Source: Candidatus Methanomethylophilaceae archaeon
Lineage (GTDB): Archaea; Thermoplasmatota; Thermoplasmata; Methanomassiliicoccales; Methanomethylophilaceae
Direction of reading: 5' to 3'
Length of the DNA: 64,000 nucleotides
Assembly: GCA_944320485.1 (NCBI GenBank)
Contig: CALUHQ010000069.1
Location: 1-64,000 of the forward strand
This document shows, one piece after another, positions 706 to 13,986 of this stretch. The first letter of the stretch is position 1, and each line of letters starts with the position of its first letter. The position numbers and the translations under genes are program-made. A model generated the notes under the pieces. The model was given only the letters and a program-made list of their open reading frames with translations, searched no databases and was not told the origin of the DNA.

Positions 706-780
706 GTAGGGAAGGGTCCGGATGCCCGCCGATGCGGACATCCGGGGACGGTCTCAGAACGTCTGCATGTAGTCGTACGG

Positions 781-1287
781 CTACTTCAGGAGTCCGCCGA
801 TGCCGCCGACGATGACCATGACGGCACCGATGACGCCCACCCAGACTCCGTACGACGCCTCGTAGTTCAGGATACTGGTCGGGATGACCTCCCCGTTGTG
901 GCTTGATATGTCACCGGAGTAGAGTACAGCCAGCGCGATGCTGGCCACGGCCAGGACGATCGTCACAACAACGGCGACCTTGTTCGCCGTCGCGGTGCTG
1001 CTGAACAGCTGGAGGACCACGGAGACGATCCCCAGTATGCCGCAGACCAGGACCACGAGCGGTGCGTAGTCGTACTCCGTGGCTCCGACGACTGGTATGC
1101 CGTACTGCGCCGAGATGTTCTCGGCATCGATGCTGCCTGCATGGAGGTCCCAACCGGTGACGTCGAAGGACATTCCGATGACGGGCAGGTTCACGGTGGC
1201 CCAGTTCAGGAGCACCGAGAATATCATCACGAAGGCCCCCAGGACACCCAGGATCCCGATTATGTTCTTCGGATCGTTAATGTGCAT
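781..1287 (-). CDS. Multi-spanning membrane protein, paralogue of the 1-532 gene, ends in TAG
   Basis: The product is 168 residues from the ATG at 1287 (MHINDPKNIIGILG). It has four hydrophobic helices: near residues 10-30, a middle pair, and a C-terminal helix rich in Val/Ile. It is a tandem paralogue of the gene at 1-532. A TATA-like stretch at about 1316-1325 and AGGGG before the ATG support the start. The stop at 781-783 is TAG, the only gene-terminal TAG found here. If TAG is decoded, the protein gains pyrrolysine plus PYDYMQTF and ends at a TGA at 754-756. Family and function are not recognised. Confidence 0.75.
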   Translation of the reverse strand: MHINDPKNIIGILGVLGAFVMIFSVLLNWATVNLPVIGMSFDVTGWDLHAGSIDAENISAQYGIPVVGATEYDYAPLVVLVCGILGIVSVVLQLFSSTATANKVAVVVTIVLAVASIALAVLYSGDISSHNGEVIPTSILNYEASYGVWVGVIGAVMVIVGGIGGLLK

Positions 1288-8184: not shown

Positions 8185-8300
8185 TGGTCGTCATGTCTTG
8201 TTTGCTCTGACGACCACTTATGCATCGGCATAAGTGCAGCATATGCTCTGCTTAAGCACGGCCTAAGCACATATGCATCAGCATAAGCACGGCATATGTC
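8185..8300. repeat. Cluster of inverted repeats and degenerate direct repeats upstream of the AlbA_2 gene
   Basis: Three layers are visible. First, a 9-base inverted repeat TGGTCGTCA / TGACGACCA (8185-8193, 8208-8216). Second, a perfect 9-base inverted repeat CACTTATGC-ATCG-GCATAAGTG (8215-8236). Third, four degenerate direct repeats built on GCnTAAGCAC followed by GGCATATG-like sequence (about 8228, 8250, 8261 and 8281), including the palindrome TGCTTAAGCA (8249-8258). The cluster ends about 20 bases before the next start codon and resembles a multi-site operator or iteron set. The first hairpin could also end the tRNA transcript. Confidence 0.7.
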
Positions 8301-8322
8301 ATGCTCAAGCCGGAGTGTTCCC

Positions 8323-9809
8323 ATGCCCCTGCCGATCAGCGTTTCAAACCTCATCTCTGGAAGGACAATCGAAAGCAGTCGGATCGAGTACAAGCGCGGG
8401 TGGAATCCCGAGAAGGTCCTCCATACGATCTGCGCCTTCGCCAACGACTATGAGAACATCGGCGGAGGGTACATAATCATAGGAGTGAGCGAGGAGGACG
8501 ATCGGCTGAAGACGGCGGTCGGACTCACGGATGCGGAGACCTCGGCGTTGGAGAAGGATCTGTTCAACAAATGCAATCTCATCCAGCCCAGATACATGCC
8601 CGTGGTCTCGGTCGAGAGCTACCAGGATGTGAACATAGTGGTTCTCTGGGTCCCCAGCAACGATTCCCGTCCGTTCACATGCCCCATGTCCCTGTCCCAG
8701 GACAAGGGTCGCGGGTCCGAGCGCGGTTACTTCATCCGCAGGATGTCCCATACGATCCGCGCAGACAGGGACGAGGTGGCGGAGCTCATGATGAGGGCGA
8801 AGCGCAGATCGTGACGAGCTGGTGAACCCCGATGCCAACATCGCTGACATAAGCCGCTCCCGTATCCTGGAGTACCTCCGGCGGGTCGGAAGCTCGATTC
8901 CGGAGAGCATGTCCACTGAGGAGATTCTGGATTCCATGAGGCTCGCCGTGGGCCCTCGTGAGCAGAGGATGTTCGTGAACGCGGCCCTGATGATGTTCTG
9001 CGAGGATCCGGAGAGGTTCTTCGACCGTGCCCGTATCGAGGTGGTGGTGAAGCCCGATCCCACCGGCTAGGGGATGACGGAGAACGTGTTCAGGGGCCCC
9101 GTCTACGCACAGCTCGAGATGGCGCTCGGATTCATCAGATTGTATGTGATCCGGGAGAGGATATTCAAGATAGACAGGCAGGCCGAGGCCCTAAGGGTGT
9201 TCAACTTCTCGTACAATGCTGTCGAGGAGGTCCTGGTGAACGCGGTCTTCCACAAAGGCTACCAGATCGGGGAGCCGGTCGTGGTCACGGTGACCCCCGG
9301 CTCGTTGGAGGTCCTGAGCTTCCCCGGATTGGACAGCGGGATCTCCGACGAGGACATCTCGAGACTCGAGATAAGGTCCAGGGGCGACAGGAACAGGCGT
9401 CTCGGCGATTTCCTCAAGGAGCTCGGGATGGCAGGAGCACGCAACACAGGAATCCCGAAGATTGTCGGGGCGATGAGGCGCAACGGTTCCCCGGATCCGG
9501 TGTACGAGACCGATGCCGACCGCAGATACCTGAACGTGGTGCTGAAGGTGCATCCGCGTTTCATGGACGACGTCCCGCAATCGGGAGCCCGCACTCCCAA
9601 CACGGGTCAGACCGACGAAGACCTGAAGGGACTCATGATCGCGTGCCTCGAGAAGGAGGGATGCCTGACATCCAAGGACCTGTGCACCGGCATAGGGTAC
9701 AGGGCGGTCAACGCCAGGTTCCGCAGGCTCCTCTCCGAGCTCATGGAGGAGGGCTGCGTGCAGTACCTGTATCCGAACCCGAGGGACAGCCGTCAGAGGA
9801 TATGCTTGA
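8323..9809 (+). pseudogene. AlbA_2 (Schlafen-type) / RecG-like HATPase protein, interrupted by a +1 shift and an in-frame TAG
   Basis: Three adjacent reading frames together give one known architecture. The first is an N-terminal AlbA_2 domain (8323-8814, with S-R-I-E-Y-K-R and G-G-G-Y-I-I-I-G-V). The second is a linker (8813-9067, NPDANIADISRSRILEYL, then P-E-R-F-F-D-R-A-R-I-E-V). The third is the HATPase_c_4-like C-terminal domain (9071 onward, F-R-G-P-V-Y-A-Q-L-E and N-A-V-E-E-V-L-V-N-A-V). Skipping one base at 8812 joins the first two. A single TAG (9068-9070) separates the second and third, which share a frame. Downstream no stop occurs in frame before the convergent DUF1015 gene, so the true end is uncertain (a TGA in another frame is at 9807). 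It may be decaying, recoded, or carry a sequence error. The chosen ATG has GGAG upstream. Confidence 0.7.
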
Positions 9810-9818
9810 AAAGGAAGG

Positions 9819-9838
9819 GGGAGGGCCTTGGCCCTCCC
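9819..9838. terminator. GC-rich hairpin between convergent units
   Basis: GGGAGGGC / GCCCTCCC with a 4-base loop (CTTG), immediately after the DUF1015 stop on the minus strand and at the end of the AlbA_2/HATPase region on the plus strand. Confidence 0.5.
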
Positions 9839-12049: not shown

Positions 12050-12721
12050 TCACTCCGGATTCGCCTGGGAGAAGCCCTTGGGGAGCTCCCTCACCAGCTC
12101 GCGCTCGTCCACGATCCCGTTCAGGCTCTCGTTTATGAACACTGGTATCCCCGTGTCATGGGCCTGGTCGCATATCGACATCGTCCAGGAGGGCTCGGGA
12201 TGGAAGCATGCGTTCCTGCGTCCCGTCTCGGCACCTATGACCACCCATTCGATGCCGGACAGGTCGACGGTGCCCACGTCCTCGACCAGCGGGTCGAAGG
12301 TCACATGGTAATGGCGGGCGTCGACGTTGCGTCTCAGCGTCCCGATCCTTCCGAGGCTCTCCCTGTCGCACACCGACACGCCGATCCATGCGCAGTCGAG
12401 GTCCGTGGAAAACCGCAGGAGGTCCGGGCGCTTGGTCAGGAAAACATAGGTGTTCTGAGGGTTCTCCCGCATCTAGCCGAAGACCTTGCTCCTCCACGGC
12501 TGCTTCCAGTACGCGAGGTCGCTCATTCCGTTCAGTAGGAAGTTGGTGGGCTCCGACGTCCTCATGAGCTCCAGCTTGCGTTCATGGAACACGGGCTGCG
12601 GGTTCTCGCCAGAAGTGTGGTAGTATCCGCAGCTGTTGCGGGCGTAGCACAGCTCGCACCCGTCAGGGCATCCGAACACGATGTTCAGGTTTCTGATAAG
12701 GGTCTTGATGTGCGCCGTCAT
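12050..12721 (-). CDS. DUF5131 (phage Gp37/Gp68-like) protein with in-frame TAG, probable pyrrolysine codon
   Basis: Two halves of one DUF5131 protein are contiguous in the same frame and separated only by TAG at 12473-12475. The upstream half has the radical-SAM-like Cys motif C-P-D-G-C-E-L-C and ends S-D-L-A-Y-W...K-V-F-G. The downstream half resumes M-R-E-N-P-Q-N-T-Y-V-F-L-T-K-R-P, exactly where homologues continue without a break. Read through, the product is 223 residues, close to family size. A TATA box (CTTTATAGCC, about 12748-12757) sits about 30 bases before the start; GTG at 12727 is an alternative. Function is unknown. The reading as pyrrolysine is an inference from the intact flanks and the near absence of terminal TAG here. 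Confidence 0.78.
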
Positions 12722-12794
12722 CCTCACGGCATCTTGTTTAAGGGCTATAAAGCTGAAGGTATCATGGATGGAGCCATGATGTTCTGTGTTCCGG

Positions 12795-12824: not shown

Positions 12825-13871
12825 TCAGCAGATCCTCGGCACGGGGTCCCCGGCGGGGGCCTCCAGGACCCTCTTGCCGCCCACCTCGGTCCTCAGTATG
12901 ACGCGCTCGGAGCCCCCCACGGCATGTCCGATGATCGCGGCGTCCTTCCCCTCGGGCGTGCGCCTGATGGCCTTCAGGACCTCGTCCGCCATCTCCGGGA
13001 CCACGCCGATGACGCACTTCCCCTCGTTGCCGATGCTGAGGGCGTCTATGCCCAGGAGGTCGCAGGCGTTGACGACACCGTCCCTCAGGGGGATGGCGCT
13101 GTAGTCGATCTCCATGCCCACGTGCGACTTCCCGCACCACTCGTTCAGGGTGTTGGCGAGACCTCCGCGGGTCGGGTCCTTCATGGCCACGATGCCCCCG
13201 GCCTTGAGTCCCTCGGCTATCATCCTGTTGAGGGGTGCGACGTCGCTCTGGACCTCGCTCTCGAAGCCGTATCCCTCGCGGAAGGAGAGCAGGGCGATCC
13301 CGTGGTCGCCCATGTACCCCGAGACGATGATCGCGTCGCCCGGCCTCACGCTGGAGTCGGTGCACCACCTGTTCTCCACCTTCCTGTACTCGGCGGCCTT
13401 GGCAAGGTTCGAGTCGAGGTACGGGGAGCGCTTCCCGACCGCGGACGTGGCCATGACCATCTGGTCCACGGCGCCCGATTCGACCACCTTCGTGTCGCCG
13501 GTGACGATCGGCACCCCGCATCCTGCCGCGGTCTTGCCCATGGAGTCCATGACCCTGTCGACGACGTCGACCTCGAGCCCCTCCTCCATGATCACGGAGC
13601 ATGCGAGCGCGATCGGCGACGCGCCCATGACGGATATGTCGTTGACGGTTCCAGCCACGGAGATCTTCCCGATGTCCCCTCCGGGGAAGAACAGGGGCTT
13701 CACGGTGTGGCCGTCGATGGTGAAGACGACGTCGTCCACGACGGCCGAGTCATCCATGGAGTCCAGCGGGACGTCCGCATTCATCTTCGGGAAGTGGTTG
13801 ACGATGTGCTTGGAGAGGAACTCCTGCATGAGCTCCCCGCCCGCCCCGTGGTTCAGGATTACCTTCGACAT
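12825..13871 (-). CDS. hypE: Hydrogenase maturation protein HypE
   Basis: A 348-residue member of the AIR-synthase-like family. It starts MSKVILNHGAGGELMQ, has the D-D-S-A-V-V-D-D and G-G-D-I-G-K-I-S-V-A-G-T-V-N-D segments, and D-P-T-R-G-G-L-A-N-T-L in the second half. It ends P-R-I-C. The C-terminal Cys is the residue carbamoylated by HypF and dehydrated to thiocyanate, the CN donor for the NiFe-hydrogenase Fe centre. No other hyp genes are nearby, so it acts in trans. The start is the conserved Met; upstream in-frame residues are not family-like. Confidence 0.93.
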   Translation of the reverse strand: MSKVILNHGAGGELMQEFLSKHIVNHFPKMNADVPLDSMDDSAVVDDVVFTIDGHTVKPLFFPGGDIGKISVAGTVNDISVMGASPIALACSVIMEEGLEVDVVDRVMDSMGKTAAGCGVPIVTGDTKVVESGAVDQMVMATSAVGKRSPYLDSNLAKAAEYRKVENRWCTDSSVRPGDAIIVSGYMGDHGIALLSFREGYGFESEVQSDVAPLNRMIAEGLKAGGIVAMKDPTRGGLANTLNEWCGKSHVGMEIDYSAIPLRDGVVNACDLLGIDALSIGNEGKCVIGVVPEMADEVLKAIRRTPEGKDAAIIGHAVGGSERVILRTEVGGKRVLEAPAGDPVPRIC

Positions 13872-13986
13872 GTCGCGTGGATGCGTGACCGTGGATTTGA
13901 TTGTTCGGTTCGGAGCGTCGTCCGCGCGCGCATTGCCCAAGATATTATATGGGGAGGCGGGCATGGGCACCCCCGAGGTATCTGGG

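Follow-up and report, generated by a model that had tools for sequence, protein, structure and literature searches.

An In-Frame TAG in a Radical SAM-Like DUF5131 Gene of a Methanomethylophilaceae Archaeon Is Probably a Pyrrolysine Codon

In the 64,000-nucleotide stretch of archaeal DNA analyzed here (hereafter the window), a gene for a radical SAM-like protein of the DUF5131 family is interrupted by one in-frame TAG, and we estimate from sequence comparisons that the chances are about three in four that this codon is decoded as pyrrolysine. A previous sequence-only reading had already taken the TAG for a probable pyrrolysine codon, and this proposal is supported by the pyl genes of the same genome, by the TAGs of four of its methyltransferase genes, by the predominance of Lys at the corresponding position of the homologues and by the rarity of TAG as a stop; the TAGs of a core gene for an 87-amino-acid protein and the conservative nature of the replacements that follow the DUF5131 TAG likewise make decoding likely. 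The pyl system of this archaeal order has been described (Borrel and colleagues 2014, PMC3941956). In Candidatus Methanomethylophilus alvus, where 1.6% of the genes end in TAG, 16 pyrrolysine proteins were predicted besides the methyltransferases, and the authors reasoned that constitutive expression of the pyl cassette allows in-frame TAGs to stabilize (Borrel et al. 2014, PMC4153887). Given these predictions, the DUF5131 case is less novel than the sequence-only reading had implied when it set pyrrolysine in such a protein apart from the methylamine methyltransferases.

Results

The Reading Frame Across the TAG

With the TAG read as a residue, the frame of the DUF5131 gene occupies 12050-12727 of the reverse strand; it opens either with the ATG at 12719-12721 or with the GTG at 12725-12727, which adds two residues, and closes with the TGA at 12050-12052. 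Counted from the ATG, it consists of 82 sense codons, the TAG at 12473-12475 (codon 83, or residue 85 from the GTG), 140 further codons and the TGA, a total of 223-225 codons depending on the start. There is no frameshift, TAA or TGA across the 225 codons, and the TAG is the sole interruption. The stretch on its 3' side (12053-12472, reverse strand), whose first codon is ATG, shows homology to the C-terminal region of family members. On its 5' side, at 12647-12670 of the same strand, lies a CX3CX2C motif (C20, C24 and C27 from the GTG), the expected ligands of a radical SAM [4Fe-4S] cluster.

A genome-level Pfam search placed DUF5131 at 12134-12691 as one match with one TAG inside it (99.1 bits, cut-off 28.9), and in the protein with the TAG counted as a residue, residues 13-198 fit the DUF5131 profile (PF07505) in a single stretch (99.5 bits, cut-off 28.9). 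The claim that the TAG is the only break between two in-frame halves, with no base lost, is therefore upheld by one family match that runs straight through it. The GC content of third codon positions is 0.87 before the TAG and 0.85 after. A fold resembling an insertion element was sought around the TAG and none was found (z 0.15), nor was a PYLIS element detected here.

Homologues and Family Assignment

When the genomes of 84,980 bacterial and archaeal species were scanned, 330 relatives emerged, of which the best 80 were analyzed. These 80 come from gut Firmicutes, Treponema and a handful of other taxa; they are near full length, 49-53% identical to the protein of the window and devoid of in-frame stops. 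The statement that the homologues run on without interruption at the TAG is likewise confirmed, the best 80 of the 330 being stop-free over the match and gapless at the site. The column of the TAG holds Lys in 80 of 84 homologues, Ala in three and Arg in one. Identity to the bacterial homologues is 48% before the TAG and 53% after it, and since the latter value is an average over 140 codons and 80 bacterial proteins, the homology that follows the TAG is beyond chance.

Among NCBIfam families the best fit is to TIGR04471 (radical SAM mobile pair protein A), with a score of 268 bits that lies below the equivalog cut-off of 355; the archaeal copies that adjoin a B gene also fall under this cut-off (316-319 bits). 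The three Cys of the CX3CX2C motif are invariant in comparisons both with the archaeal homologues and with 34 bacterial ones. The earlier characterization of the product as radical SAM-like needs to be corrected in that the product is homologous to radical SAM mobile pair protein A. It resembles TIGR04471, which lies within PF07505, in its full-length homology, its identity to the gut Firmicutes and Treponema copies and its Cys motif, and differs from it in the in-frame TAG, in the lower score and in having neither an adjacent pair protein B nor a preceding MarR-like gene.

An AlphaFold model with Lys in place of pyrrolysine has a mean pLDDT of 77 and puts the residue in a helix (74-86, pLDDT near 90) between two strands. 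Its best structural matches in the PDB are to the radical SAM enzyme spore photoproduct lyase and are marginal (E 6e-3, probability 0.91, TM 0.32-0.37); a sequence search of the PDB with the DUF5131 protein returned no relative.

Within the archaeal order the gene occurs in 5 of 147 genomes and is intact in the other four, so that among the five carriers just this genome has a TAG at the site. This patchy archaeal distribution suggests lateral transfer. The gene is flanked by a convergent gene for a MazG-like protein (PF12643; 11678-12043, forward strand) and, upstream on its own strand, by hypE (TIGR02124, 366 bits, cut-off 252; 12825-13970, reverse strand), neither of which encodes the usual partner; pair protein B (TIGR04470) is absent from both sides and is located on another contig (G000:C32:4181-5032). 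There it lies directly behind a DUF1848 gene, in the place of pair protein A (L133 1462-3299, reverse strand). Two congeners keep B without A and, together with the position of B on a separate contig behind DUF1848, this indicates that A may be dispensable. The presence of B in the genome was consequently dropped as an argument for a working A.

The Pyrrolysine System of the Same Genome

The genome to which the window belongs is a 1.71-Mb assembly in 83 contigs, presumably metagenome-derived and estimated to be 88% complete. Judging from its pyl genes, this methylamine-using methanogen is probably a member of Methanomassiliicoccales close to Methanomethylophilus. The search for pyl genes that had been proposed as a check found pylT, pylS, pylB, pylC and pylD, a complete set, with protein scores all above the curated cut-offs (PylS 277, PylB 427, PylC 312 and PylD 193 bits). 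A similarity search detected pylT (G000:C71:16470-16539), 91% identical to the M. alvus tRNA-Pyl; an ARAGORN run did not detect it. Contig C71 carries, in order, two mtmB genes with in-frame TAGs, pylT, pylS (without its N-terminal domain), pylB, pylC and pylD, and on contig C8 mtbB and mttB, both of which contain an in-frame TAG, are accompanied by a second pylB. The Rfam elements PYLIS_2 and PYLIS_3 are present in mtbB and mttB.

The second pylB, on the 7.5-kb contig with mtbB and mttB (L150, G000:C8), is divergent, and the contig could represent either a second cassette or a contaminant. The pylB of the main cluster (L024 9387-10448, forward strand) overlaps pylC at its end. In the genus (loci L166-L194), 8 of 28 pylB genes end in TAG, 19-24 codons before the next stop, a count uncorrected for shared ancestry. 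Given how seldom TAG serves as a stop elsewhere, a pyrrolysine-dependent read-through or feedback at the pylB TAG is conceivable.

TAG as a Stop Codon

Stop usage was tallied over sampled stretches totaling 563 kb, using a simple home-made codon-bias caller that included some false ORFs, and the 536 genes so called end in TGA (485), TAA (39) or TAG (12). The 12 TAG calls comprise two mtmB genes, mtbB, mttB, the DUF5131 gene, the gene for an AlbA/HATPase-like protein in the window, the gene of the 87-amino-acid protein and five others. These five are pylB, whose next stop lies 20 codons further on, a small membrane-like protein of the window (754-1287, reverse strand) whose TAG end comes eight codons before a TGA, a zinc-ribbon protein whose TAG is plausibly a true stop, and two unclear cases. 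At least half of the 12 are TAG-interrupted reading frames. The case of L044, in which T2SSF is followed by DUF2085, was left out of the in-frame TAGs because it may be two genes. When TAA was read as sense, it mostly added segments of negative coding score or ran into the next gene, and the TGA cases that we inspected by eye revealed only separate neighboring genes or antisense frames.

The Lys codons of this genome are predominantly AAG (6534/6980), and TAG is its likeliest nonsense mutation, reached by about two thirds of the paths. The occurrence of TAG rather than TGA is for this reason weak evidence when taken alone, and we abandoned as a statistical proof the observation that all of the interruptions are TAG and none TGA.

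Selection on the Region That Follows the TAG

Conserved residues are retained equally on the two sides of the TAG (37/58 before, 59/90 after). After it, replacements are more conservative than in a crude neutral simulation (mean BLOSUM 0.11 vs. -0.61, z 3.6); before it they are not (z 0.6). Columns that are conserved even in distant archaeal copies show no advantage in retention after the TAG (31/48 kept, compared with 28/42 for the rest), while before it they are kept in 24 of 32 cases as against 13 of 26 (p 0.045). In a separate simulation, likewise crude, a neutral run to equal divergence would leave no stop 13% of the time. As the divergence of the gene may largely predate the TAG, these tests demonstrate past selection on the region and not selection today.

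Other Genes That Contain a TAG

The 87-amino-acid protein is encoded in 28 of the 31 genomes of the genus and is thus a core gene product. In this genome its gene (L040 930-1190, reverse strand; G000:C29) has a TAG at residue 60, where the other copies shown have Tyr; in two sister species (L209, G002 and L210, G001) there is a common TAG at residue 12, where the other copies shown have Lys or Arg. That a core gene has twice gained a TAG, one of them kept across species, strongly suggests that TAG is decoded outside the methyltransferases in this genus, and this gene is perhaps a better test of non-methyltransferase pyrrolysine than the DUF5131 gene.

Near the pyl cluster, a gene for a DUF4428-SHOCT protein (L024 1058-1405, reverse strand; G000:C71:9057-9404) has an in-frame TAG at residue 39, and three congeneric homologues of it have no internal TAG. 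In the window, right after a tRNA-Thr gene, the AlbA/HATPase_c_4-like gene at 8296-9820 of the forward strand contains a TAG (9068-9070) and, apparently, a frameshift (near 8813) and is likely to be decaying.

Discussion

The evidence assembled above has to be weighed against the possibility that the DUF5131 gene is a young pseudogene, one in which translation mostly ends at the TAG, or passes it to no effect, and whose protein is no longer needed. The gene is patchy in the order, its B partner does not adjoin it, and B outlives A in congeners; the protein has diverged by 50% from a family whose bacterial members share 86% identity, and after the TAG the most constrained columns are not favored in retention. 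Moreover, the AlbA/HATPase_c_4-like gene, with its apparent frameshift and its TAG, indicates that decaying genes here do collect TAGs. Nonetheless, a pseudogene accords poorly with 225 codons free of frameshifts, TAA and TGA, with the retained Cys motif, with the conservative changes after the TAG and with an identity that does not drop beyond it, and the tRNA-Pyl that is present would cause the TAG to be at least partly read. We therefore consider decay of the gene to be unlikely.

We give very little credence to a split gene, in which translation would stop at the TAG and restart at the adjoining ATG (TAGATG) to make two cooperating polypeptides. The ATG does abut the TAG, at a column where 80 of the 84 homologues have Ile and one only (L114) has Met; however, as read by eye, the sequence has no good ribosome-binding site where one would normally lie, a weak AGGT at 10 bases being the sole candidate, and the GGAGG that lies 18 bases before the ATG derives from Trp-Arg codons. 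Split relatives were not found, and tRNA-Pyl would compete. An error of sequencing or assembly appears equally improbable. The genome is represented by a single metagenome assembly, fragmented and incomplete, but a one-base substitution that yields exactly TAG would be an unlikely error in an otherwise clean gene, and the same pattern recurs in several other genes, including the core gene that bears a TAG in the sister species.

Decoding of the TAG as pyrrolysine thus remains the reading that we prefer. A single substitution would have turned an ancestral AAG codon for Lys into TAG, the gene being otherwise mainly found in gut Firmicutes. PylB, PylC and PylD would make the pyrrolysine, PylS would charge it onto tRNA-Pyl (CUA), and this tRNA would read the TAG. 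The predicted product is a full-length radical SAM-like protein of 223-225 residues, putatively an active enzyme, with pyrrolysine in a predicted helix at the position where its relatives have Lys. Most likely, the replacement of Lys by pyrrolysine is tolerated and near-neutral and provides no new catalytic device. A functional replacement of the near-invariant Lys, in which pyrrolysine would take on a role in chemistry or binding, or would tie synthesis of the protein to the pyrrolysine supply and so to growth on methylamines, seems to us very unlikely. The gene shares an in-frame TAG with the MtmB, MtbB and MttB genes of the same genome, a methyltransferase family in which decoding is known; in those enzymes, however, the pyrrolysine is catalytic and conserved, whereas at the DUF5131 column relatives have Lys or Ala, and no PYLIS was detected in the gene.

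The closest parallel is with the proteins predicted in Ca. M. alvus, which belongs to the same order and likewise has a full pyl set, TAG-free homologues of the proteins concerned, coding sequences interrupted by TAG and joined to an in-frame extension, and few TAG stops (1.6% as compared with at most 12 of 536 calls here); unlike the present case, neither DUF5131 nor radical SAM mobile pair protein A is among the proteins listed (PMC4153887, Table 7). With the DUF5131 gene, the few proteins predicted to have pyrrolysine at a TAG that functions as a normal sense codon gain a clear new example.

Standard gene callers will split such TAG-containing genes in two. According to a report of 2025, some archaea read all of their TAG codons as pyrrolysine, reportedly with proteomic support. 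The DUF5131 gene and that of the 87-amino-acid protein, with its TAGs at different residues in different species, lend support to the idea that TAG is becoming a sense codon in these gut methanogens.
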